From Polaribacter sp. (lineage in GTDB: Bacteria; Bacteroidota; Bacteroidia; Flavobacteriales; Flavobacteriaceae): a DNA stretch of 16,628 nucleotides. The first letter of the stretch is position 1. Each line of letters begins with the position of its first letter. The position numbers were made by a program, and so were the translations under genes. Of this stretch, positions 3 to 10,569 are shown one piece after another. The DNA is taken from positions 548 to 17,175 of the forward strand of contig DPRC01000171.1 of NCBI GenBank assembly GCA_003537695.1, given 5' to 3'. The notes below the pieces were generated by a model that worked only from the letters and a program-made list of their open reading frames with translations, was not told the DNA's origin and did no database searches.

Positions 3-845
3 TTAATTCATTTTGATAAATTTAGAAGGGCTCTTTTTTTTAATAGCTTTAAACTGTCGGTTAAAATTAGAAAGGTTGTTAAATCCAGAATGATGTGCAA
101 TTTCTGAAATTGACAGCTCATTTTTTTTAAGTAATAATTTACAGGCATATTCAATTCGCAATTCTGCTAAAAATTTAAAGTACGTTTTATTAGTACGTTT
201 TTTAAAATATTTACAAAAAGCATTTTTGGTCATATTGGCAACGGAAGCAATTATTTTTAATGAAATGTTTTTTTGAAAATATTTCATAGTATACTCAAAT
301 ACGTCTTGCATTCTTTTTCCTTCAACATCTGTATATTTTTTTTTATAAATAAAAGAAGAGAGACTTTTATAACTCGCTTTCGAGCCAATCTGTAAGAGTT
401 CTAAAAGTGTTGTGAATACCTTGAGCTTTGGAGCTGTTTTTAATTTAAAAAATAAATTAAAAATTATTTTTTTAGACGAAATTATTTTGAATCCGTGTTG
501 CGAGCGAATGAAAAAAGGTTGTAGTACTTGCAATTCTTCTAGTTCAAAAAAAGAAGTTCCAAAGGAATTTTTTGAGAAGAAAAGACTTTGCATATGAGAA
601 TTCGAACTCTCTTCCAAATCACTTTTAAAAACATGTGGAATATTGCTTCCAATAACTAAAACATCTCCTTTGTTATAATAATTGACTGTATCCCCTACAA
701 TCAAGGTTCCTTTGCCTTCAATAATTATACTTAATTGAATTTCTTCATGCTGATGCAGTTTGTCATAAAAGTAAATTTCTACATCTTCCTGATACACGAT
801 AGCACTGTTTTCTGGTTTCGGTATTTTAAATGGAAGTACTCTCAT
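3..845 (-). CDS. AraC-family transcriptional regulator with N-terminal cupin domain
   Basis: A 280-residue regulator. Residues about 28-75 form a cupin-like effector domain, with HQHEEIQ at 31-37, a glycine-rich turn (EGKGTLIVGD) at 43-52 and NIPHVF at 68-73. The C-terminal 100 residues form the double helix-turn-helix DNA-binding domain: first helix pair about 195-216, second about 244-266 (SISEIAHHSGFNNLSNFNRQF), followed by the usual KSPSKF ending. Length and domain order are normal for the family, and the reading frame is complete, with its stop at the very edge of the window. It is divergent from the hydroxyproline operon that begins 142 bases away, so it is inferred to be that operon's local activator, responding to hydroxyproline, a pathway intermediate or a Hyp peptide. 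The effector cannot be read from the sequence. The gene is rich in long T runs on the plus strand (poly-Lys/Phe codons on its own strand). Confidence 0.9.
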   Translation of the reverse strand: MRVLPFKIPKPENSAIVYQEDVEIYFYDKLHQHEEIQLSIIIEGKGTLIVGDTVNYYNKGDVLVIGSNIPHVFKSDLEESSNSHMQSLFFSKNSFGTSFFELEELQVLQPFFIRSQHGFKIISSKKIIFNLFFKLKTAPKLKVFTTLLELLQIGSKASYKSLSSFIYKKKYTDVEGKRMQDVFEYTMKYFQKNISLKIIASVANMTKNAFCKYFKKRTNKTYFKFLAELRIEYACKLLLKKNELSISEIAHHSGFNNLSNFNRQFKAIKKKSPSKFIKMN

Positions 846-986
846 TACTTCAAAAATACATAAATAATATTCATTTATTTGACTTTAATGTAATATGTGG
901 ATTGTATTATATTATATGTTGATAAAATCTCATTAATTTGTGGTGAATGGGTTTAGTAAATTTACCAAGAAACTAAAACGATAATT
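846..986. promoter_or_regulatory. Divergent intergenic region between the AraC gene and the hydroxyproline operon
   Basis: This 141-base A+T-rich spacer must hold the promoters for both directions. On the plus strand, TTTG at 937-940 followed after 16 bases by TAAATTTA at 957-964 resembles the Bacteroidota -33/-7 pair (TTG, TAnnTTTG); the spacer is one base shorter than usual and the last base differs. The -7 candidate is embedded in a perfect 10-bp palindrome, GTAAATTTAC at 956-965, a plausible operator. On the minus strand, TATTTTTG (plus bases 851-858) matches TAnnTTTG exactly but sits only 5 bases before the AraC start codon and lacks a good -33 element, so an AraC transcript from it would be almost leaderless. 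All promoter calls here are pattern-based. Confidence 0.45.
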
Positions 987-1904
987 ATGAGTATTGAATG
1001 GAGTGGTGTGATGCCAGCAGTAACAACCAAATTTACAGAAAAGGATACATTAGACATGCACATGTTTGAAATAAATATTCAAGCACAGTTGGATGCGGGT
1101 GTCCATGGTATTGTTTTGGGTGGTACTTTGGGCGAGGCTAGTACTTTGACAGATAGTGAAAAGCGAACACTAACAAGAGAAACAGTAGCTATGGTTGCCA
1201 GTAAAGTTCCTGTTTTGATGAATATAGCTGAACAAACTACTACAGGTGCAATAGCAGCAGCGAAGATAGCAGAAGATGATGGTGCGAAAGGTTTGATGAT
1301 GCTTCCTCCAATGAGATATAAGGCAGGAGACCGAGAAACAGTTGCCTATTTTAAAGCAGTTGCAGATAGTACCGCACTCCCTATTATGGTGTATAACAAT
1401 CCAATAGATTATAAGGTAGAGGTTTCTTTAGACATGTTCGAGGAACTGATTGCTTCTTGTCCAAATATTCAAGCAGTAAAAGAGTCAACAAGAGATATTT
1501 CTAATGTAACAAGAATAAAAAATAGATTTGGTTCTCGTTTAAAGATCATGACTGGGGTTGATACGTTGGCGCTCGAAAGTTTACTGATGGGAGCAGATGG
1601 TTGGGTTGCCGGATTGGTTTGTGCATTTCCAGCAGAAACAGTTGCGATATACGAATTGCAAAAGGCAGGAAGAATTAAAGAAGCGATTGAAATCTATCGT
1701 TGGTTTTTACCTTTGCTAGAGTTAGATATAAACCCTAAATTAGTTCAAAACATTAAGTTGGCAGAAGTCTATACAAAAATTGGAACAGAAAATGTGCGTG
1801 CACCTCGTTTGCCGCTGCATGGCGAAGAGCGTTTGCACGTATTGCACATTATTGAAGAAGGAATGAGAAAAAGACCAACTTTACCAACTTATAAAAATTT
1901 ATAA
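987..1904 (+). CDS. DapA-family protein, probable pyrroline-4-hydroxy-2-carboxylate deaminase
   Basis: A 305-residue class I aldolase-fold protein of the dihydrodipicolinate synthase/N-acetylneuraminate lyase family. Visible family residues are the GGTLGEAST loop at 45-53 (the GTTGE-type substrate loop), the catalytic Tyr136 in VYNNP, and the Schiff-base lysine Lys165 in AVKEST. In the hydroxyproline pathway this family member converts 1-pyrroline-4-hydroxy-2-carboxylate to alpha-ketoglutarate semialdehyde and ammonia. That role is inferred from context: the next gene is the dehydrogenase for the product, and an epimerase and a D-amino acid oxidoreductase follow. True DapA is less likely because no lysine genes are nearby. 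L-2-keto-3-deoxyarabonate dehydratase, a sister activity giving the same product, is the main alternative, but no sugar genes accompany it. It is the first gene of the operon; its stop codon abuts the next ATG directly. The start has no evident Shine-Dalgarno sequence. Confidence 0.85.
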   Translation: MSIEWSGVMPAVTTKFTEKDTLDMHMFEINIQAQLDAGVHGIVLGGTLGEASTLTDSEKRTLTRETVAMVASKVPVLMNIAEQTTTGAIAAAKIAEDDGAKGLMMLPPMRYKAGDRETVAYFKAVADSTALPIMVYNNPIDYKVEVSLDMFEELIASCPNIQAVKESTRDISNVTRIKNRFGSRLKIMTGVDTLALESLLMGADGWVAGLVCAFPAETVAIYELQKAGRIKEAIEIYRWFLPLLELDINPKLVQNIKLAEVYTKIGTENVRAPRLPLHGEERLHVLHIIEEGMRKRPTLPTYKNL

Positions 1905-3488
1905 ATGATTACAGGAAAAAATTATATTGGAAACATACGCTCCTCTGAAGGAACAAAAACATTCACAACGTTTAACCCACAAGAAAATAAAAGAAATACT
2001 TCCGTTATTACAGAGGCGTCTATAGAGGAAATTGACAAAGCTGTAGCATTAGCAGCCAACGCATTTCAAGTATATTCTAATAAAACTGGTTTAGAAAAGG
2101 CTTGTTTTCTAAGAGCTATTGCAGACGAAATAGAAGCCCTAGGAACTGCATTGATTGAAGTATATACCTCAGAATCTGGACTAGCAGCTGCAAGAGCAAT
2201 GGGAGAGAGAGGAAGAACAGTTGGGCAGTTAAGAGCTTTTGCTCTGCATATAGAGGAGGGAACTTGGGTAGCAGCAAGCATAGACACTGCACAACCAGAG
2301 CGTCAGCCAGTGGCAAAAATAGATTTACGTAAAATGAATATCGCTTTAGGACCAATTGTTGTTTTTGGAGCTTCAAACTTTCCTTTTGCATTTTCTACTG
2401 CGGGTGGTGATACTGCAGCAGCTTTAGCAGCAGGTTGTCCTGTAATTGTAAAATCTCATCCAATGCATGCGGGTACGGGGGAACTAGTTGCATCAGCAAT
2501 TATTAAAGCAGCACAGAAAACAGGAATGCCTAACGGCGTTTTTTCCAATTTAAATAGTAGTGGAATTGAAGTTGGGCAAGCTTTAGTGAAGCATCCAAGT
2601 ATAAAAGGAGTAGGTTTTACAGGAAGTATTCGGGCAGGAAGAGCATTATTTGATCTTGCGGCAAAAAGACCAGAGCCAATTCCAGTTTTTGCAGAAATGG
2701 GATCTGTAAATCCTGTTATTTTCTTACCAGAGGCGTTAAACGAAAAAGCAGTTGATTGGGCAAAAATTTACGCAGGTTCTATTACTTTAGGGGCAGGACA
2801 GTTTTGTACTAATCCCGGTTTGCTGCTCGGTATCGCAGGAGAAGGATTGAACCAATTCGGACTAACATTAGCCGAAGAAATTATAAAAATAGCTCCTACT
2901 TGCATGTTGCATCCCACTATTTGTGACGCCTACGAAAGTAACAAAGCAAAAGTTGTTTCTCAAGAAGGAGTGTCAGTACTAGTAGATTATGAGGATACTT
3001 CTCAAAATAACTATGGCCGTCAGATAGTATCTAAAGTGTCAGGAGCAGTATTTTTAGAAAATCCAACATTACATCTTGAAGTTTTTGGGCCCTCTTCTTT
3101 GCTTGTTATTTGTAAGGATGCAGCGCAGTTAGTTCAGATAGTAAATAATTTAGAAGGGCAGCTAACGGGAACAATCATCGCTACAGATTCAGAAATAGCT
3201 GCAAATCCTAGTATTGTTTCAGCATTGCAAAATAGAGTAGGAAGAATTATTTTCAATGGGGTTCCAACTGGAGTAGAGGTTTGTCCTTCCATGCAGCACG
3301 GAGGACCATATCCAGCATCTACAGATGCAAGATTTACAGCTGTAGGGGTGGATTCCATTAAGAGATGGGTGCGGCCTTTTAGTTTTCAAGCGTGGCCAAA
3401 TAATTTATTGCCAGCAGCTTTGAAAAATGAAAACCCATTAGCTATTTTAAGAACTGTTGATGGTGTAAAAACAAGGAACAAAATTTAG
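1905..3488 (+). CDS. Alpha-ketoglutarate semialdehyde dehydrogenase (2,5-dioxovalerate dehydrogenase)
   Basis: A 527-residue aldehyde dehydrogenase superfamily enzyme, expected to be cytosolic, oxidising alpha-ketoglutarate semialdehyde to alpha-ketoglutarate as the last step of hydroxyproline breakdown. The cofactor-binding segment GASNFPFAFS begins at 155 and contains Asn158. Lys183 lies in VKSHPMH, Glu264 (general base) in FAEMGS, and the catalytic Cys301 in GQFCTNPG. The SHPMH after the lysine, the FGASNFPFAFSTAGGDT block and the length above 500 residues resemble the NADP-type KGSADH group associated with hydroxyproline and sugar-acid pathways rather than betaine- or succinate-semialdehyde dehydrogenases. 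Cofactor choice is inferred, not shown. The ATG follows the preceding stop codon with no gap, which suggests translational coupling, and only 4 bases separate it from the next gene. Confidence 0.9.
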   Translation: MITGKNYIGNIRSSEGTKTFTTFNPQENKRNTSVITEASIEEIDKAVALAANAFQVYSNKTGLEKACFLRAIADEIEALGTALIEVYTSESGLAAARAMGERGRTVGQLRAFALHIEEGTWVAASIDTAQPERQPVAKIDLRKMNIALGPIVVFGASNFPFAFSTAGGDTAAALAAGCPVIVKSHPMHAGTGELVASAIIKAAQKTGMPNGVFSNLNSSGIEVGQALVKHPSIKGVGFTGSIRAGRALFDLAAKRPEPIPVFAEMGSVNPVIFLPEALNEKAVDWAKIYAGSITLGAGQFCTNPGLLLGIAGEGLNQFGLTLAEEIIKIAPTCMLHPTICDAYESNKAKVVSQEGVSVLVDYEDTSQNNYGRQIVSKVSGAVFLENPTLHLEVFGPSSLLVICKDAAQLVQIVNNLEGQLTGTIIATDSEIAANPSIVSALQNRVGRIIFNGVPTGVEVCPSMQHGGPYPASTDARFTAVGVDSIKRWVRPFSFQAWPNNLLPAALKNENPLAILRTVDGVKTRNKI

Positions 3489-3492
3489 TGAA

Positions 3493-5217
3493 ATGAAGCA
3501 CACGAAACTTTTTCTCTTTTTCGGACTTTTATTAAGTTTTGTAGCGTGTAAAAATACTTCGTCTAGCGAAGAATTGTATGCTTTAATTGCGCGCTATGAA
3601 AATTCTAAAGTGTTTGATTCGAATAGTGAAGCTTCTTTAGAAATTACGATAGCGCATTACGCAGCGGCGGCAAGGCTTTCAAAAGAGCTGAAAATTGAAT
3701 TAGAAGCACTTTCAATGGATAATGTGCTGGAAACAGATAAAATTTCGTACCAGTTATTGTTATTTGTTTTACAAGATAAAATAGACCAACATGCGTTTAA
3801 AATGTACTTGAATCCGATTACCAATGAAACTGCTTTTCATTTGAATTTAAGTCAAATGGGGCAGCGTGAATTCAAGAGCAGCAAAGAAGCAAAAGCCTAT
3901 TTAACGGAACTAGAAAACTTACCCACACAAATTGACTATCATCTTTCAATATTAAAGGCAGGAGTGGAAGCAGGAATTTCTCAACCCCAGGCTGTATTTT
4001 ATGAATATGACAAAACCTACAACAATCATATTGTTGAAGCGGTAACAGAAAGTGCGTTTTACAGACCTTTTTTGAACTTGCCAGTAGGGTTTTCTGCAAG
4101 CTTTAAAGATTCTATTATTTCCGTAGCAAAAGCTAGTGTTCAAAATAACTGCATAAAGCAATACAAGAAAATAAAAACATTTTTTGAGACGGAATACTTT
4201 CCAAATACGCGGAAGGAAATAGGCGTTTCATCAGTTCCTAATGGAAAAGAATTCTATCAAAATAGAATTAACTTTTATACTACAAGTAAAAAATATACAG
4301 CAGAAGACATTCATAATATTGGTTTAGAAGAGGTGGCGAGAATCAAGCTTGATATGATGAAAATTATTACGGAATTAAACTTCAAAGGTTCGTTTGCAGA
4401 TTTTCTAAAGTTTTTAAGAACGGCACCCCAGTTTTACCCGAAGACAGCCGAAGAATTGCTAATGTTTGCAAGAGATGTTTCCAAGAGAATAGATGCAGAA
4501 TTACCAAAGTTCTTTAAAACGCTGCCAAGAAAACCATATGGAGTCGTCCCTGTTCCAGCTGCAATTGCTCCAAATTACACATCGGGAAGATATTCAGTTT
4601 CTGAAAATGAGACGACTGCTGGATTCTATTGGGTAAATACTTATAATTTACCAAGTAGAACTTTATATACAATTCCCGCTTTAACAGCGCATGAAGCCGT
4701 TCCGGGACACCACTTACAAATTTCACTAAACAATGAATTGCCAAAAACAATTCCTGTTTTTAGAAGAGAATTATACCTGTCTGCTTTTGGAGAAGGTTGG
4801 GGATTATATGCTGAAACTTTGGCAGCTGAAATGGGCATTTATACAACACCTTATGAGAAATTTGGAAAGCTAACTTATGAAATGTGGAGAGCATGCAGGT
4901 TGGTAGTAGATACAGGGGTGCACGCTTTAGGTTGGACACGTCAGCAAGTATTAGAGTATATGACCTCAAACACGGCACTTTCATTGCATGAAGTTAGAAC
5001 AGAAACAGATCGATATATTTCTTGGCCAGGTCAAGCTTTATCCTATAAAATAGGAGAAATAAAAATAAGACAACTGCGTGCAGAAGCAGAAAAAGCTTTG
5101 GGAATTGCATTTGATATTCGTGATTTTCACGAAGTTATTTTAAATCAAGGAACGGTGACACTGTCAATTTTAGAAAAAAGAGTACAGCGGTATATAGCGA
5201 AAAAAAAGGATGAGTAA
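3493..5217 (+). CDS. DUF885-family putative zinc metallopeptidase, lipoprotein
   Basis: A 574-residue protein with a lipoprotein signal: a basic start (MKHTK), a hydrophobic core, and FVAC with the lipidated Cys at 19, so it should be anchored on the periplasmic side of a membrane. The residues after Cys (KNTSSSEE) are not the strongly acidic type usually linked to surface export in this phylum, so periplasmic placement is somewhat favoured. The family hallmark is HEAVPGHHLQ at 400-409 (His400, Glu401, His406/407), with a probable third ligand in EGWGLYAE at 434-441; together these form a gluzincin-like site. DUF885 proteins are predicted peptidases with little defined specificity. Placement between the dehydrogenase and the epimerase, in an operon with two M24 peptidases, suggests it trims Pro/Hyp-containing peptides outside the cytoplasm. 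Its end overlaps the next gene by 8 bases (ATGAGTAA). Confidence 0.85.
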   Translation: MKHTKLFLFFGLLLSFVACKNTSSSEELYALIARYENSKVFDSNSEASLEITIAHYAAAARLSKELKIELEALSMDNVLETDKISYQLLLFVLQDKIDQHAFKMYLNPITNETAFHLNLSQMGQREFKSSKEAKAYLTELENLPTQIDYHLSILKAGVEAGISQPQAVFYEYDKTYNNHIVEAVTESAFYRPFLNLPVGFSASFKDSIISVAKASVQNNCIKQYKKIKTFFETEYFPNTRKEIGVSSVPNGKEFYQNRINFYTTSKKYTAEDIHNIGLEEVARIKLDMMKIITELNFKGSFADFLKFLRTAPQFYPKTAEELLMFARDVSKRIDAELPKFFKTLPRKPYGVVPVPAAIAPNYTSGRYSVSENETTAGFYWVNTYNLPSRTLYTIPALTAHEAVPGHHLQISLNNELPKTIPVFRRELYLSAFGEGWGLYAETLAAEMGIYTTPYEKFGKLTYEMWRACRLVVDTGVHALGWTRQQVLEYMTSNTALSLHEVRTETDRYISWPGQALSYKIGEIKIRQLRAEAEKALGIAFDIRDFHEVILNQGTVTLSILEKRVQRYIAKKKDE

Positions 5218-6220
5218 AAAAACATTTTTTTGTATTGATGCCCATACCTGTGGCAACCCAGTGCGTGTTATTGCAGGCGGCGGACCAAATTTGGTTGGTG
5301 ATACAATTCGAGAGAAGCGCCAGCATTTTTTAAAAGAGTTCGATTGGATTCGCAAAGGATTAATGTTTGAACCACGTGGGCATGATATGATGAGTGGGAG
5401 TATATTATTTCCGCCGCAGTGCATAGAAAACGATTTTGCAATTTTATTTATAGAGACTTCAGGTTGTTTGCCAATGTGCGGTCATGGAACCATCGGTACG
5501 GTTACGATTGCCATAGAAGAGGGCTTAATTACTCCAAAAATTCCAGGTAAAATAAAAATGGAGACTCCAGCAGGTTTGGTGCATATTGAATATCATCAAA
5601 CGGGCAATAAGGTAGATTGGGTAAAATTAATCAATGTAAAAAGTTACTTAGCAGCAGAAAATTTGACAATAGATTGTCCGGAACTCGGGGAAATTACTTT
5701 TGATGTTGCTTATGGGGGAAATTATTATGCAATTGTTGATCCACAGGAAAATTATAAAGGACTGCAGGATTTTTCCGCAACTAAAATTATTCAATATTCA
5801 CAGGTTGTCCGTGACCGTATCAATGATAAATATCCAGCGCTATTTATTCATCCTGAAGATGATACGATTAGAAATGTCACACATATGTTATGGACTGGTA
5901 GTCCGATAGCGCCAACATCATCCGGTAGAAATGCTGTTTTTTACGGTGCCAAAGCAATTGATAGAAGTCCTTGTGGTACAGGTACTTCTGCTAGACTTGC
6001 ACAGTTATATGCAAAAGGAAAATTAAAATTAGCAGAACAATTTATTCATGAAAGTTTTATTGGAAGTACATTTATCGGTTGTGTCGAAGAAGAAACCACT
6101 TTAGCCGGCATTCCTGCAGTAGTTCCAAGTATTCAAGGATGGGCAAAAGTCTTTGGATACAACACGATTAGTATAGATGCAGAAGATGATCCTTATGCAC
6201 ACGGGTTTCAGGTGATTTAA
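5210..6220 (+). CDS. 4-hydroxyproline 2-epimerase (proline racemase family)
   Basis: A 336-residue member of the proline racemase superfamily. Both catalytic positions are cysteine: Cys90 in MCGHGTIG and Cys255 in DRSPCGTGTSAR. The Cys/Cys pair indicates a racemase/epimerase, since trans-3-hydroxyproline dehydratases carry Ser or Thr at the first site. It should interconvert trans-4-hydroxy-L-proline and cis-4-hydroxy-D-proline without cofactor in the cytosol, the first step of the pathway whose other enzymes surround it. Proline racemase itself is an alternative, but the deaminase, semialdehyde dehydrogenase and D-amino acid oxidoreductase genes make the 4-hydroxyproline role more likely. 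The start at 5210 is supported by the immediate family motif (FFCIDAHTCGNPVRV at 6-20). The gene overlaps the preceding stop by 8 bases and ends 21 bases before the next start. Equivalent genes are called hypE or lhpA in other bacteria. Confidence 0.92.
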   Translation: MSKKTFFCIDAHTCGNPVRVIAGGGPNLVGDTIREKRQHFLKEFDWIRKGLMFEPRGHDMMSGSILFPPQCIENDFAILFIETSGCLPMCGHGTIGTVTIAIEEGLITPKIPGKIKMETPAGLVHIEYHQTGNKVDWVKLINVKSYLAAENLTIDCPELGEITFDVAYGGNYYAIVDPQENYKGLQDFSATKIIQYSQVVRDRINDKYPALFIHPEDDTIRNVTHMLWTGSPIAPTSSGRNAVFYGAKAIDRSPCGTGTSARLAQLYAKGKLKLAEQFIHESFIGSTFIGCVEEETTLAGIPAVVPSIQGWAKVFGYNTISIDAEDDPYAHGFQVI

Positions 6221-6241
6221 TAAAGGGTTTAAAGAAGAAAA

Positions 6242-7492
6242 ATGAGTAAAAATATAATTGTAGTCGGAGGTGGGATTATTGGATTAAGTACTGCCTATTA
6301 TTTGCAAAAAGAAGGACATCAAGTTACGGTCATAGATAAGTCAGATTTTAGAACGGGAGCATCGTACGTAAATGCTGGTTATATTACACCCAGTCATATT
6401 ATTTCATTAGCATCTCCAGGAATTATTACACAAGGGCTTAAATGGATGTTTGACTCAAGCAGTCCTTTTTATGTAAAACCAAGACTCGATATCGACTTTT
6501 TAAAATGGAGTTGGGCATTTAAAAAATCAGCAAACGCAAAAAAAGTAGCCACTTCAATTCCCGTAATTAAAGAGATTAATTTACTGAGTAGAGATTTATA
6601 TGAGGAGATAAAAGCGTCTAATGATTTTAATTTTCAATACGAACGCAAAGGTTTAATGATGTACTATCAAACAGATAAAGTTGGAGAGCATGAGTGGAAC
6701 TTAGGTAAAATGGCTTTGAAGGAAGGATTGCATGTGACACATTTAACAACGATGGACGCAATTAAAAAGTACGAGCCCAATGCAAAATTAAATGTAAAAG
6801 GGGCTGTTTATTTTGACTGTGATGCGCACATGACACCGGGTAATTTCATGCAGGAAATGATTGCGTATCTAAAGTATAAAGAGGTACAGATTCTTGCCAA
6901 TGAAACAGTGATTGATATTGCTGTTTCAAATCAAAAAATAACAGAAGTAATAACAAATAGGGGTTCCTACAAATGCGACGAAGTTGTAATGGCTGCTGGA
7001 AGTTGGAGTCCACTATTAACTAAGAAACTCGGAATTAAAATTCCAATTCAAGCGGGTAAAGGGTATGCTATCGATGTAGAAAGAGAAACTGATATAACCA
7101 TCCCATCTATTTTATGTGAAGCTAAAGTTGCGGTAACACCTATGAAAGGTTTTACCCGTTTTGCCGGAACGATGGAGATTGATAAGATTAATCATTGTGT
7201 AAATCCTAAAAGAGTAGACGCTATTGCAAATGCTGCAAAGAAATTCTACAGTGGCTTGGAGATTAATCAGGCTGAAAAAGATGCAGCAGCATCCGGTTTG
7301 CGCCCTTGTTCTCCGGATGGATTGCCATACATTGGAAAGTCATCAAAATGCAAAAATTTAACAATTGCTGCAGGACATGCAATGATGGGGTGGAGTTTAG
7401 GCCCGGTCACAGGTAAACTTGTAACAGAGATAATTTCGAATAAAAAACCTTCCTTGGATTTAAAACCATTTAGTCCAGACAGAAAATTTTAA
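6242..7492 (+). CDS. FAD-dependent D-amino acid dehydrogenase, probable cis-4-hydroxy-D-proline dehydrogenase
   Basis: A 416-residue DAO/DadA-superfamily flavoprotein. The FAD dinucleotide-binding motif GGGIIG is at 9-14, with Asp32 at the end of the second strand (VID) as the probable ribose ligand. A second FAD segment, AAGSWSP, is at 251-257, and the C-terminal signatures are GLRPCSPDGLPYIG at 352-365 and GHAMMGWSLGP at 378-388. No signal peptide is present, so it is expected to act at the cytoplasmic side, perhaps passing electrons to the respiratory chain. In this operon it should oxidise cis-4-hydroxy-D-proline to 1-pyrroline-4-hydroxy-2-carboxylate, the substrate of the DapA-family enzyme. 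A single-subunit DadA-like enzyme thus replaces the multi-subunit dehydrogenase used by some proteobacteria. Whether it is a dehydrogenase or an H2O2-forming oxidase cannot be decided here. It lies 21 bases after the epimerase gene and 2 bases before the next gene. Confidence 0.87.
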   Translation: MSKNIIVVGGGIIGLSTAYYLQKEGHQVTVIDKSDFRTGASYVNAGYITPSHIISLASPGIITQGLKWMFDSSSPFYVKPRLDIDFLKWSWAFKKSANAKKVATSIPVIKEINLLSRDLYEEIKASNDFNFQYERKGLMMYYQTDKVGEHEWNLGKMALKEGLHVTHLTTMDAIKKYEPNAKLNVKGAVYFDCDAHMTPGNFMQEMIAYLKYKEVQILANETVIDIAVSNQKITEVITNRGSYKCDEVVMAAGSWSPLLTKKLGIKIPIQAGKGYAIDVERETDITIPSILCEAKVAVTPMKGFTRFAGTMEIDKINHCVNPKRVDAIANAAKKFYSGLEINQAEKDAAASGLRPCSPDGLPYIGKSSKCKNLTIAAGHAMMGWSLGPVTGKLVTEIISNKKPSLDLKPFSPDRKF

Positions 7493-7494
7493 GA

Positions 7495-8796
7495 ATGAGA
7501 TACGAATCAATTCCGAATACATTATTTATTAAAAATAGAAGCAATTTTATTGCCCAGATGAAACCGAACACTATCGCTATTTTGACAGCAAATGATGTTA
7601 AACACAACAACGCAGACGATGTGATGGGTTTTGTGCAAAACAACGATTTATTTTATCTGTCCGGTGTAGATCAAGAAGAAACAATTTTAGTCTTGTATCC
7701 AGATGCTTTAAAAGAGAAAAATAAAGCGATGGTTTTTATAAAAGAAACCAACGCACATATTAAAATATGGGATGGAGAAAAACTAACTAAAGAACAAGCG
7801 GCACTCATCTCTGGTATTGAAAGAGTAGAGCACGTTCAAGATTTTGAAATGGTATTGCAATACATGGCCTTTGAAGCAGATGGATTTTATTTAGGTCATA
7901 ATGAGCATTTAAAACGAGTTACTAAAGATCAAGAAACGCAGCAAGATAGAATGATCAAGTGGTGCAAAGAAAAATATCCTCTGCACGAATATTACAGAGC
8001 TGCAAAAATTACAAGAGATTTGCGTCCTGTCAAATCGATAGAAGAAATCAAGCTACTCCAAAAAGCAGCGGATATTAGTGTTAGTTCTTTTATTAGGGTA
8101 TTAAAAGCTTGCAAACCAATGATGAAAGAGTATGAGTTGGAAGCAGAGTTGACTTATAACTTAGTGAAGTCAGGGGCTGCACACCATGCATTCCAACCGA
8201 TTGTTGCTTCTGGGAAAAATGCATGTGCGCTTCATTATAATACTAATGACGACCGTTGTAACAATGGTGAAATGATTTTATTAGATTTTGGTGTTTGTTA
8301 TGCAAATTACAACAGCGATACAACACGTTGCATTCCAGTAAACGGGAAGTTCTCTAAAAGACAAAAGGAAGTTTATAGCGCTGTTTTACGCTGTTTAAAA
8401 GAAGGTAGCAAATTTTTAATTCCTGGTATTCTGCCTTCAGATTACGAAGCTAAAATGGTGTGTTTGGTAGAGGAAGAATTGATACATTTAGGCTTGTTAA
8501 ACGCAGATGCGATTGCCGTCCAAGATCCTAAAAATCCGTTGTATAAAAAATATTTTATGCACGGTACAGCGCATTATATTGGGTTGGATGTGCATGATGT
8601 GGGGCTGTATTCTAGAAAGATAGAAGCAGGGATGGTTTTTACTTGTGAGCCAGGGATATATATACCAGAGGAGGGAATTGGTTGTCGGCTTGAGAACGAT
8701 TACCTAATCAATGCAAAAGGGAACGTTAACTTAACGGCAGCAATGCCAATTGAGATTGAAGAGATTGAAAGATTAATGAATACTAAAAAAATATAG
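7495..8796 (+). CDS. pepP: Xaa-Pro aminopeptidase (aminopeptidase P, M24B) with AMP_N domain
   Basis: A 433-residue dimetal aminopeptidase. Residues about 1-130 match the aminopeptidase P N-terminal domain (FVQNNDLFYLSGVDQEE at 46-62), and about 175-425 form the pita-bread catalytic domain. Metal ligands are visible: Asp264 (LLDFG), Asp275 (NSDTTR), His360 (GTAHYIGLDVHD), Glu385 (CEPGIY) and Glu400 (RLEND). His247 (GKNACALHYNTN) corresponds to a conserved catalytic-site histidine of PepP. The family removes the N-terminal residue from peptides with proline in second position. No signal peptide is present, so it is cytosolic. In this operon the natural substrates may be peptides with hydroxyproline at P1', which is inference. 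It starts 2 bases after the flavoprotein gene and directly abuts the next gene. Length is typical. Confidence 0.9.
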   Translation: MRYESIPNTLFIKNRSNFIAQMKPNTIAILTANDVKHNNADDVMGFVQNNDLFYLSGVDQEETILVLYPDALKEKNKAMVFIKETNAHIKIWDGEKLTKEQAALISGIERVEHVQDFEMVLQYMAFEADGFYLGHNEHLKRVTKDQETQQDRMIKWCKEKYPLHEYYRAAKITRDLRPVKSIEEIKLLQKAADISVSSFIRVLKACKPMMKEYELEAELTYNLVKSGAAHHAFQPIVASGKNACALHYNTNDDRCNNGEMILLDFGVCYANYNSDTTRCIPVNGKFSKRQKEVYSAVLRCLKEGSKFLIPGILPSDYEAKMVCLVEEELIHLGLLNADAIAVQDPKNPLYKKYFMHGTAHYIGLDVHDVGLYSRKIEAGMVFTCEPGIYIPEEGIGCRLENDYLINAKGNVNLTAAMPIEIEEIERLMNTKKI

Positions 8797-10005
8797 ATGA
8801 AAGGAATTGGAGGGTCGACAATAGCTGCAGAATTAAACGCAATTCAGCCCACTGCGCATTTAGTGGAGCCAATAGGGGAGAAAGAATTTGACCACAGAAT
8901 AGCGCGCGCTTGTCAATTAATGCAAGAGCAGCAGGTACCTGCATTATATCTTCATGCTGGAATAAACTTATACTACTTTACGGGTATGAAATGGAATTCG
9001 AGTGAGCGCATGGTTGGCGCTTTGTTGTTTCCGAACGGGACCCTATTATATATTGCTCCAGAATTTGAAAAGGGTACTATCTTTGACTTTATGTTGATCC
9101 CAGGTGCCGTTCACGGTTGGGAGGAACATGAATCTCCATACCTATTATTTGTAAATCTTTTAAAGGAAAATGGAGTCGCTTCAGGGAACATATCTATCGA
9201 TGAGGCAACTCCTTTTTTTATATTTGATGGCATTAAAAATTGTCAAAATTCCTATAATTTTGTGAACGCAAAACCAATTACAGCGGGCTGCAGAATGATT
9301 AAATCTCCTGCTGAAATCTCGATTATGCAGCATGCTATGAACATCACATTAGAGGTTCAGAAAGCAGTAGCAAGGATTTTAAGAGTTGGAATTTCTGCCA
9401 AAGAAATCACTGATTTTATTAATGAGGCACATGTAAAGTATGGCGCTCATTCTGGCTCGTATTTTTGTATTGTGCTATTTGGAGTGGATACTTCTTTTCC
9501 GCACGGTGTTAAAGCACCAAAACATTTAGAAGAAAATGAAGTGGTATTAATCGATACTGGTTGTAGCATCCATGATTATATTTCAGACATTACAAGAACT
9601 TATGTCTTTGGAACTCCAAATGAGGAACAAATACGAATTTGGAATATTGAAAAGGAAACACAACTTGCAGTATTTGATGCTGCTCAACTGGGAAACACTT
9701 GCGCAGCTATGGATGCTGTGGCTAGAAATATATTGGAGGGTCGAGGATTAGGACCCGCATATGAATTACCAGGTTTGCCACATAGAACTGGTCATGGTAT
9801 CGGTTTAGAGATACATGAATGGCCTTATGTTGTTCAGAATGACACCACGGTATTAAAACCGGGAATGACTTTTAGCAATGAACCCATGATTTGTATACGA
9901 GGTAAATTCGGAATACGACATGAAGATCATATCTATATGACAGATGAAGGGCCAAAATGGTTCACAAAACCGATGCACTCCTTAGAGAATCCGTTCGGTA
10001 TTTAA
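8797..10005 (+). CDS. M24-family Xaa-Pro dipeptidase/aminopeptidase (prolidase- or creatinase-like)
   Basis: A 402-residue second M24 enzyme, clearly distinct from its neighbour. Residues about 30-165 resemble a creatinase-type N-terminal domain (HAGINLYYFTGMKW at 53-66) and about 170-390 form the catalytic domain. All five metal ligands are present: Asp253 (LIDTG), Asp264 (ISDITR), His333 (RTGHGIGLEIHE), Glu362 (SNEPM) and Glu376 (IRHEDH). An intact metal site favours peptidase over creatinase activity. It has no signal peptide. Together with the aminopeptidase P upstream it could complete cytosolic cleavage, for example of Xaa-Pro/Xaa-Hyp dipeptides, to free hydroxyproline for the epimerase. 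Substrate preference is inferred. Its ATG follows the previous TAG directly, and it is the last gene of the operon. The 30 N-terminal residues before the domain are Gly/Ala/Pro-containing and show no signal character. Confidence 0.88.
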   Translation: MKGIGGSTIAAELNAIQPTAHLVEPIGEKEFDHRIARACQLMQEQQVPALYLHAGINLYYFTGMKWNSSERMVGALLFPNGTLLYIAPEFEKGTIFDFMLIPGAVHGWEEHESPYLLFVNLLKENGVASGNISIDEATPFFIFDGIKNCQNSYNFVNAKPITAGCRMIKSPAEISIMQHAMNITLEVQKAVARILRVGISAKEITDFINEAHVKYGAHSGSYFCIVLFGVDTSFPHGVKAPKHLEENEVVLIDTGCSIHDYISDITRTYVFGTPNEEQIRIWNIEKETQLAVFDAAQLGNTCAAMDAVARNILEGRGLGPAYELPGLPHRTGHGIGLEIHEWPYVVQNDTTVLKPGMTFSNEPMICIRGKFGIRHEDHIYMTDEGPKWFTKPMHSLENPFGI

Positions 10006-10138: not shown

Positions 10139-10160
10139 GCGTACTCAGTTTTTGGTACGC
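10139..10160 (+). repeat. Hairpin in the presumed DoxX leader
   Basis: GCGTAC (10139-10144) and GTACGC (10155-10160) form a perfect 6-bp stem, four of its pairs G-C in total across the two ends, around a 10-base loop rich in T. It is unusually G+C-rich for this intergenic region. It is not followed by a clean T run (CACTTTTATTAG), so it is a weak terminator at best; it may instead be a leader structure or a protein-binding site. Confidence 0.4.
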
Positions 10161-10191: not shown

Positions 10192-10569
10192 ATGAGAAGT
10201 AAAATATGGATTGCATTAAAATTTTTGTTGGCATTGTTTTTAATTTTTGGAGGCGTGCAACATTTTCTAAAACCGGAGGCCTATGTTCCTTTTGTCCCTG
10301 TGTTTTTACCCGGTACTATGGCAATCATATATGCATCTGGACTATTAGAAATTGTACTTGGGATTGCTTTGTTTTTTAAAAAGTGGGCGTATATGGGGGC
10401 TACAGGAATTCTGATTTTAATGCTACTCTTTTTACCAATCCATATATGGGATGTCTTTTCTGATACACCAGCAATAGGAAGTCAAACAGCAGCTTTGATT
10501 CGATTACCACTGCAGTTTTTACTTATAGGGGCCGCTTGGAAAGTAAAAAACAAGATTTTAAGGAGGTAA
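10192..10569 (+). CDS. DoxX-family small membrane protein
   Basis: A 125-residue integral membrane protein with four predicted membrane segments at about 5-22, 42-60, 66-84 and 98-115, and a strongly basic C-terminus (KVKNKILRR). The motif GGVQHFLKPEAYVPF at 21-35, just after the first helix, and the GLLEIVLGIALF segment at 50-61 are typical of DoxX/DoxX-like proteins. Family members have been linked to quinone-dependent or redox-stress functions in other organisms, but the role of this short form is not established. It stands alone: 186 bases after the hydroxyproline operon and convergent with the HAD phosphatase gene. It has its own promoter candidate, so it is probably not part of the catabolic unit. 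Confidence 0.8.
   Translation: MRSKIWIALKFLLALFLIFGGVQHFLKPEAYVPFVPVFLPGTMAIIYASGLLEIVLGIALFFKKWAYMGATGILILMLLFLPIHIWDVFSDTPAIGSQTAALIRLPLQFLLIGAAWKVKNKILRR

Follow-up and report, generated by a model that had tools for sequence, protein, structure and literature searches.

The subject of this analysis is a predicted hydroxyproline catabolic operon in a 16,628-nucleotide stretch of the Polaribacter sp. genome (assembly GCA_003537695.1, contig DPRC01000171.1, positions 548 to 17,175; G000:C178:548-17175 in our genome set), hereafter the window; the assembly comprises 1.85 Mb and is 70% complete. Scanning of the window for open reading frames (ORFs) and for Pfam and NCBIfam matches (14 ORFs in the Pfam scan) identified seven genes on the + strand (987-10005) that lie opposite to a gene of the AraC family and are separated, in operon order, by gaps of 0, 4, -8, 21, 2 and 0 nt. 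These scans bear out the co-directional seven-gene operon, with spacings of -8 to +21 nt, proposed in the first-pass annotation of this DNA. Its description of a pathway "fused" with peptidases holds for the shared operon but not for the genes, which are separate, and the start given there, position 846, immediately adjoins the end of the divergent araC gene, the first operon gene beginning at 987.

The four-step hydroxyproline pathway assigned to the operon is supported by a curated cut-off in the case of the epimerase and at the family level in the case of the other three enzymes. The predicted 4-hydroxyproline epimerase (trans-4-L to cis-4-D; 5210..6220, + strand, as are all operon genes) matches NCBIfam NF010578 with 574 bits compared to the cut-off of 376 and carries two cysteine motifs, with Cys90 and Cys255. 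The next gene encodes a putative D-hydroxyproline oxidoreductase of the DAO family (6242..7492; PF01266) that is similar to D-amino acid dehydrogenases but scores under the NCBIfam equivalog cut-offs. The first two genes of the operon encode a predicted deaminase (987..1904; PF00701, with Lys165) and a putative alpha-ketoglutaric semialdehyde dehydrogenase (1905..3488; PF00171, with Glu264 and Cys301 motifs), the best solved relative of the latter being an aldehyde dehydrogenase, 3v4c; for the deaminase, the oxidoreductase and the dehydrogenase, no listed NCBIfam equivalog exceeded its cut-off. We take Cys90 and Cys255 of the epimerase, as well as the corresponding residues of the other enzymes, to be catalytic, and make the same kind of assumption for the five metal ligands of the M24 proteins described below.

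The remaining genes encode three predicted peptidases. The product of the third gene (3493..5217) is a DUF885 lipoprotein and a putative zinc peptidase: it matches PF05960 with 494.5 bits, against a cut-off of 32.4, and contains the HExxPGH motif, with residues H400, E401, P404, G405, H406 and E434 invariant in 21 sequences, and its fold resembles those of solved DUF885 proteins and may, more distantly, resemble those of M32, M3 and M2 peptidases. The last two genes encode an aminopeptidase P-like Xaa-Pro aminopeptidase of the M24 family (M24a; 7495..8796; AMP_N and M24 domains), for which the best solved relatives are Xaa-Pro aminopeptidases, and a prolidase-like M24 peptidase (M24b; 8797..10005; Creatinase_N and M24 domains), for which the best solved relative is a proline dipeptidase (5cik/4r60, E 9.6e-112); both retain the metal-ligand motifs. 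By a crude signal-peptide rule, the N-terminus of the DUF885 protein is lipoprotein-like and neither M24 protein has an export signal; this rule picks out the oxidoreductase and many deaminases as well, so that the localization of the window proteins is a guess.

The divergent gene (3..845, - strand) encodes an AraC-family protein with a cupin-type N-terminus (Pfam HTH_18, HTH_AraC and Cupin_2), the putative regulator of the operon. The gap between this gene and the operon contains a degenerate direct repeat, GGATT..TGATA, with a 21-bp spacing (899..925, + strand), a putative AraC operator, and a possible -7 element of the Bacteroidota type (957..964, + strand), seen by eye only.

Conservation of the catabolic core and its peptidases

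We compared the operon with its counterparts in a family set of 199 genomes and a phylum set of 392 genomes. An epimerase match with an E value of 1e-30 or better is present in 108 of the 199 family genomes, and 105 of these possess the type that was counted, with at least 56% identity (22 of the 127 match rows, which represent a type with 31-35% identity, were omitted, including 3 that are the sole epimerase match of their genome); in the phylum set, 79 of the 392 genomes encode an epimerase over the curated cut-off. Locus comparison involved 80 named loci, which are dominated by near relatives because they are the best 80 of 343 confirmed stretches, and 80 regions hand-chosen for spread. The named locus closest to that of the window has a DNA identity of about 75% to it, and L079 represents the operon of Flavobacterium johnsoniae strain CI04. 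The resulting tally includes 111 loci from the family and 35 from outside, with 11 of 122 and 2 of 37, respectively, dropped on account of short flanks; L152 and L171, for which the simple ORF caller gave no epimerase ORF, were dropped from the comparison as well.

Of the 111 family loci, 101 encode all four pathway enzymes within 10 kb, a recurrence among loci with enough flanking sequence that argues against a chance assembly of the operon. A match to the deaminase profile was detected in 110 of these loci (on the same strand in 104), and an AraC homolog is located within 10 kb in 100, on the strand of the epimerase in 3 of these. The deaminases of eight loci (L042, L055, L061, L065, L077, L078, L088 and L093) are 30-32% identical to that of the window, compared to 70-87% in most others, and are likely to be replacements by another branch of the DHDPS family. 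Of six peptidase types, the same strand encodes at least one in 77 of the 111 family loci, at least two in 48, and at least three in 10. The core is thus fixed whereas the peptidases are exchanged; the interchangeable types are DPP4-like S9, S37, a long form of aminopeptidase P (L115), two kinds of M24, and DUF885.

Among the individual peptidases, the DUF885 subfamily of the window (counted at 51% identity or above, with lower rows omitted) is tied to this locus. This subfamily is represented in 63 of the 199 family genomes, namely, in 53 of the 105 epimerase-positive genomes and 10 of the 94 others (P 6e-10), and where both genes are present (53 genomes), 48 genomes have them no more than 10 kb apart, 44 of these with gaps between -4 and +45 bp. 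M24b is found in 22 genomes, 18 of which encode the epimerase, within 10 kb in 10 of the 18. DPP4-like S9 peptidases are encoded in at least 16 genomes, 15 of them with the epimerase, and 13 of these 15 have the two genes within 10 kb by hand count; up to 5 S9 candidates (and up to 4 for GH127) were scored per genome, and the S9 tally is not exhaustive, copies in G061, G094, G100, G117, G127 and G143 having been missed although they are near the core.

A direct repeat upstream of the operon

Expectation-maximization on the gaps that separate araC from the operon, with 103 promoter regions used (2 of 105 were too short), yielded a 21-bp direct repeat with the approximate sequence GGATAATATAGTAT-n7-GGATAA. 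The log-likelihood was 1137, compared to 65-95 in five shuffles; the repeat had first been spotted by eye, and the best search run began from random sequence, with the shuffled controls run only from the seed. Sites scoring 12 or above are present in 87 of the 103 training regions, and the background, 320,727 bp of 17 other loci, contains one site scoring 10 or above and none scoring 13 or above. With a matrix built without the window, the top-scoring of its 33,194 positions is 894-925, which is situated in the gap between araC and the operon and contains the copy of the repeat; a loose pattern derived from this copy matches a single site in the Polaribacter assembly, that of the operon itself. 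Judging from its position, the repeat appears to be bound by the AraC protein.

The repeat recurs in front of genes other than the core. Outside the training set, among ORFs with an upstream gap, sites scoring 10 or above precede 10 of 15 S9 genes, 9 of 10 SusC2 genes and 5 of 10 SusC1 genes, compared to 5 of 703 unclassified ORFs (Fisher P 9e-16, 2e-16 and 4e-8, respectively, values that are overstated because the loci are related). Two of the five unclassified ORFs are DUF6055 genes. Such genes stand behind the operator in three genomes (L226:4355-6580, L116:16539-17969 and L038:6436-7896), and the DUF6055 protein of L226 has a type IX secretion tail, making it a candidate secreted enzyme.

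A pattern search of 69 genomes produced 42 matches in 35 genomes, compared to 3 for a reversed control. The epimerase is within 10 kb of 30 of these matches, 11 are unlinked, and one, in G066, is located in the gap between araC and the deaminase gene on a broken contig. Fitting genes follow approximately 5 of the 11 unlinked sites: an aldehyde dehydrogenase-M24a-M24b array (L212), SusC/SusD (L214), SusC/SusD with GH127 (L220, two sites), and a gene of the ornithine-cyclodeaminase family (L215). By genome, the aldehyde dehydrogenase-M24a-M24b site belongs to G153, sites with SusC/SusD and with S9-GH127 to G030, and sites with SusC/SusD and with GH127 to G075. In the latter genome, the site of the operon scores 18.9, no araC is present in the surrounding 20 kb, and an araC gene is found in the unlinked SusC/SusD-GH127 locus, which suggests control in trans. 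The ornithine-cyclodeaminase family gene (L215:8953-9909) adjoins an araC homolog and a site, and might encode an additional enzyme of proline or hydroxyproline metabolism. Unlinked M24b and S9 copies (L223-L225, L227 and L228) have mixed neighbors and no site scoring 13 or above.

Larger loci with S9, SusC/SusD and GH127

Six genomes (G061, G094, G100, G117, G127 and G143) carry, after the core, genes for an S9 peptidase, a GH127-type enzyme and a DUF5695 protein; DUF885b is present in 5 of the 6 genomes, SusC/SusD also in 5 of the 6, and the S9 gene is preceded by a site in all six (scores 11.9-16.9). SusC/SusD pairs are encoded in relatives L231-L235, and S9-GH127 modules were also detected in named loci of Muricauda/Allomuricauda, Tamlana and Confluentibacter. 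In G127, the array runs in one direction for about 26 kb and continues to GH42, GH43, M24b and GH36 genes, followed by a further site and a DUF6055 gene. In this genome (L226:4355-19001 and L235), M24b is embedded among GH36, GH43, GH42, DUF5695 and DUF885b genes that continue from the core, an arrangement that suggests the use of arabinogalactan-type glycoproteins. The DUF5695 proteins, of about 900 amino acids, travel with GH127 and often with DUF885b (L056:7372-10080, L220:16406-19108 and L226:14551-17241); the structural model from 4 sequences was too poor for a fold search (mean pLDDT 46.8), and among solved sequences the sole match was not significant (E 0.22).

The GH127 type, a putative beta-L-arabinofuranosidase, is encoded in at least 10 of the 199 family genomes, all of them epimerase-positive (P 0.0014). 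By hand count, six copies are no more than 10 kb away from the epimerase, two are unlinked with sites, and two are unlinked without sites, those in G144 and G154, where no site scoring 10 or above was detected in the surrounding stretch. The best solved relative of this enzyme is 5opj, and entries of the Bifidobacterium type score below it. A Bifidobacterium GH127 beta-L-arabinofuranosidase is active on extensin (PMC5698469, available part), and the enzymes of the relatives, which belong to the same Pfam family and have no counterpart in the window, could remove arabinose from hydroxyproline. According to the parts of the reports available, other sugars and carrageenan can be substrates of GH127 enzymes too (PMC5698469, PMC8163846), so that arabinosylated hydroxyproline is a putative substrate suggested by the genomic context.

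A putative hydroxyproline regulon and its alternatives

The window probably represents the unit that processes peptides and catabolizes hydroxyproline within a hydroxyproline regulon controlled by AraC in Flavobacteriaceae. Under this scenario, the DUF885 lipoprotein would trim hydroxyproline-containing peptides at the envelope; the trimmed peptides might reach the cytoplasm through a general peptide transporter (PTR2 peptide-transporter matches are present in the Polaribacter assembly); the two M24 enzymes would cleave Xaa-Pro and Xaa-Hyp bonds, releasing hydroxyproline; and the epimerase, D-oxidoreductase, deaminase and semialdehyde dehydrogenase would convert the latter into alpha-ketoglutarate. 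The AraC protein encoded divergently, which might respond to hydroxyproline or to a pathway intermediate, would work at the 21-bp direct repeat. In the relatives, with the repeat ahead of SusC/SusD, DPP4-like S9, DUF6055 and GH127 modules, these could be complete loci for the utilization of hydroxyproline-rich (glyco)proteins, of which the window would be a lean version. Of this scenario, the gene content, the synteny, the co-location of DUF885 and the recurrence of the repeat are observed, whereas the activities, the localization, the assignment of the regulator to the repeat, the inducer and the polymer are inferred. We more tentatively propose, at slightly less than even chances, a dedicated hydroxyproline-rich glycoprotein system of Flavobacteriaceae under a single AraC operator, which would encompass import by SusC/SusD, DPP4-like S9, the GH127-type enzyme, two kinds of DUF885 metallopeptidase, DUF5695 and DUF6055 enzymes, M24 peptidases for Xaa-Hyp and the pathway leading to alpha-ketoglutarate. 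The window would be the lean, peptide-only form of this system; if this is the case, DUF885, DUF5695 and DUF6055 gain testable functions.

The coupling of hydroxyproline catabolism to proline peptidases is not new, and the contrast with Proteobacteria drawn in the first-pass annotation was overdrawn: in the available parts of the respective reports, both the HypR regulons (PMC5343134) and the Colwellia collagen cluster (PMC7883544) include such peptidases. The gammaproteobacterial HypR regulons comprise proline (di)peptidases, a di/tripeptide permease, a TonB-dependent transporter and collagenases, and have the four catabolic steps in common with the window; their proline (di)peptidases are under joint control, and the M24 genes of the window belong to the predicted operon. 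The regulator is the GntR-type HypR in Proteobacteria, compared to the AraC/cupin type adjoining the window operon, and the available text of that report makes no mention of DUF885, DPP4-like S9, SusD or GH127 (PMC5343134). The Colwellia cluster combines 4-hydroxyproline epimerase (4HypE), D-hydroxyproline dehydrogenase, deaminase, alpha-ketoglutaric semialdehyde dehydrogenase, PepQ, YpdF and an M9 collagenase (PMC7883544); it resembles the window in joining the pathway core with proline peptidases, but has the M9 collagenase, transporters, isomerases and PutR, which the window lacks, whereas the window has DUF885 and the AraC-type regulator. Within the proline racemase superfamily, 4HypE genes are found beside DAAO, DHDPS and aldehyde dehydrogenase families, as they are here, but these neighborhoods go with transport systems, and in the portion of that survey available to us peptidases are named once, for a t3HypD cluster (PMC4113996). 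Latescibacteria have been proposed to degrade hydroxyproline-rich glycoproteins (PMC4454575, available part). In the open-licence PubMed Central literature, we found no description of the Bacteroidota form of the operon, of the AraC-type repeat, or of the link to S9, SusC/SusD and GH127.

Hydroxyproline-rich proteins are abundant in algae, plants and animals, and we found little on their use by Bacteroidota. A conserved operon with a readable putative operator makes it possible to predict sets of peptidases, importers and glycosidases that work jointly, and suggests functions for DUF885, DUF5695 and DUF6055 as well as growth substrates. The window alone is of moderate interest; the regulon that it opens up is of greater interest.

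Several observations weigh against the regulon. With respect to gene content, the 14 window ORFs scanned include no Pfam match to SusC/SusD, S9 or GH127, and the GH127 type of the relatives was not found in the 70% complete assembly. The synteny of peptidases and pathway that the first-pass annotation proposed to check exists as a non-random tie, but the set of DUF885, M24a and M24b found in the window occurs in 3 of the 111 family loci, the window included; 34 of the 111 have no same-strand gene for any of the six peptidase types, and outside the family the same applies to 30 of 35 loci, with 5 of 35 encoding any, a figure that is biased low because the profiles were built from family sequences. 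With respect to the repeat, the copy in the window scores low, 4.7, with the next best position at 1.5; a site precedes none of the 21 M24 and DUF885 genes with their own upstream gap and 1 of 3 GH127 genes; the pattern search found no site in 34 of the 69 genomes, including the Polaribacter assembly and the same-genus G131; the remaining unlinked sites do not clearly precede fitting genes; and the loci are related to one another, Flavobacterium accounting for 8 of the 9 SusC2 cases. Finally, M24b is encoded elsewhere in 8 of the 18 epimerase-positive genomes, and DUF885 and M24b exist without the epimerase in 10 and 4 genomes, respectively.

These last counts also fit general scavenging of proline peptides, in which the peptidases would serve any proline peptide and share the operon because both functions draw on proline-rich protein food. 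This is a serious possibility, albeit one that falls short of even, and it is compatible with the nearest solved enzymes being Xaa-Pro peptidases. At least two of the genes that usually flank the operon are kept at 6 of the 10 epimerase-less DUF885 loci and 2 of the 4 M24b loci, compared to 38 of 120 family loci that have at least two such genes. These epimerase-less loci look as if the catabolic genes were lost and the peptidases kept, in a stepwise decay of the operon, and the peptidases, placed in a dedicated route in the first-pass annotation, are not strictly dedicated. Against scavenging stand the DUF885 genes beside the epimerase in 48 of the 53 genomes where DUF885 and the pathway are both present, and the 9 epimerase-less DUF885 loci and 4 M24b loci in which no araC adjoins the peptidase and no site scores 13 or above. 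The tenth DUF885 locus, in G062, retains araC, deaminase, dehydrogenase and a site, and may be no true loss because the contig ends in DUF885 and the epimerase could have been left unassembled. At L192, L194, L195, L196, L198, L199, L207 and L208, all epimerase-less, DUF885 or M24 lies between HemN-like, cyclase, YjbR, PhnA, DUF4407 and M20 genes, which border the operon in other genomes.

Collagen or gelatin as the actual substrate, by analogy with the Colwellia cluster, seems rather unlikely. Collagen is rich in hydroxyproline, the core with proline-specific peptidases resembles that cluster (PMC7883544, available part), and an M43 peptidase is encoded downstream in some Flavobacterium loci; however, some relatives carry GH127, none of the 14 window ORFs matches M9 collagenase in Pfam, and no M9 match was obtained in 6 genomes including that of the window, although here the control matched nowhere either, so that absence is not established. 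The window itself is compatible with either collagen or a plant or algal glycoprotein, and the neighbors in some relatives point to arabinosylated hydroxyproline-rich glycoproteins. An operon for free hydroxyproline with the peptidases as chance neighbors is improbable: the family loci without same-strand peptidases and an SSF-type transporter close by in some loci would agree with it, but DUF885, S9 and M24b are co-located with the pathway far above chance, and the repeat stands before SusC and S9 genes. The co-location counts reject the chance-neighbor interpretation of the peptidases.

Downstream of the last operon gene, there is a terminator-like hairpin (10139..10160, + strand; 7 pairs, 4 of them G-C), which is weak evidence of a terminator because the region contains 11 such sites compared to 7.2 +/- 2.8 in shuffles. 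Past the hairpin, a 125-amino acid protein (10192-10569) with a weak MauE-like match below the cut-off is probably encoded outside the operon. The genes further downstream, all on the opposite strand, encode a HAD hydrolase, a LacI-type regulator, two family 2 glycosyltransferases and a 454-amino acid protein without a Pfam match.

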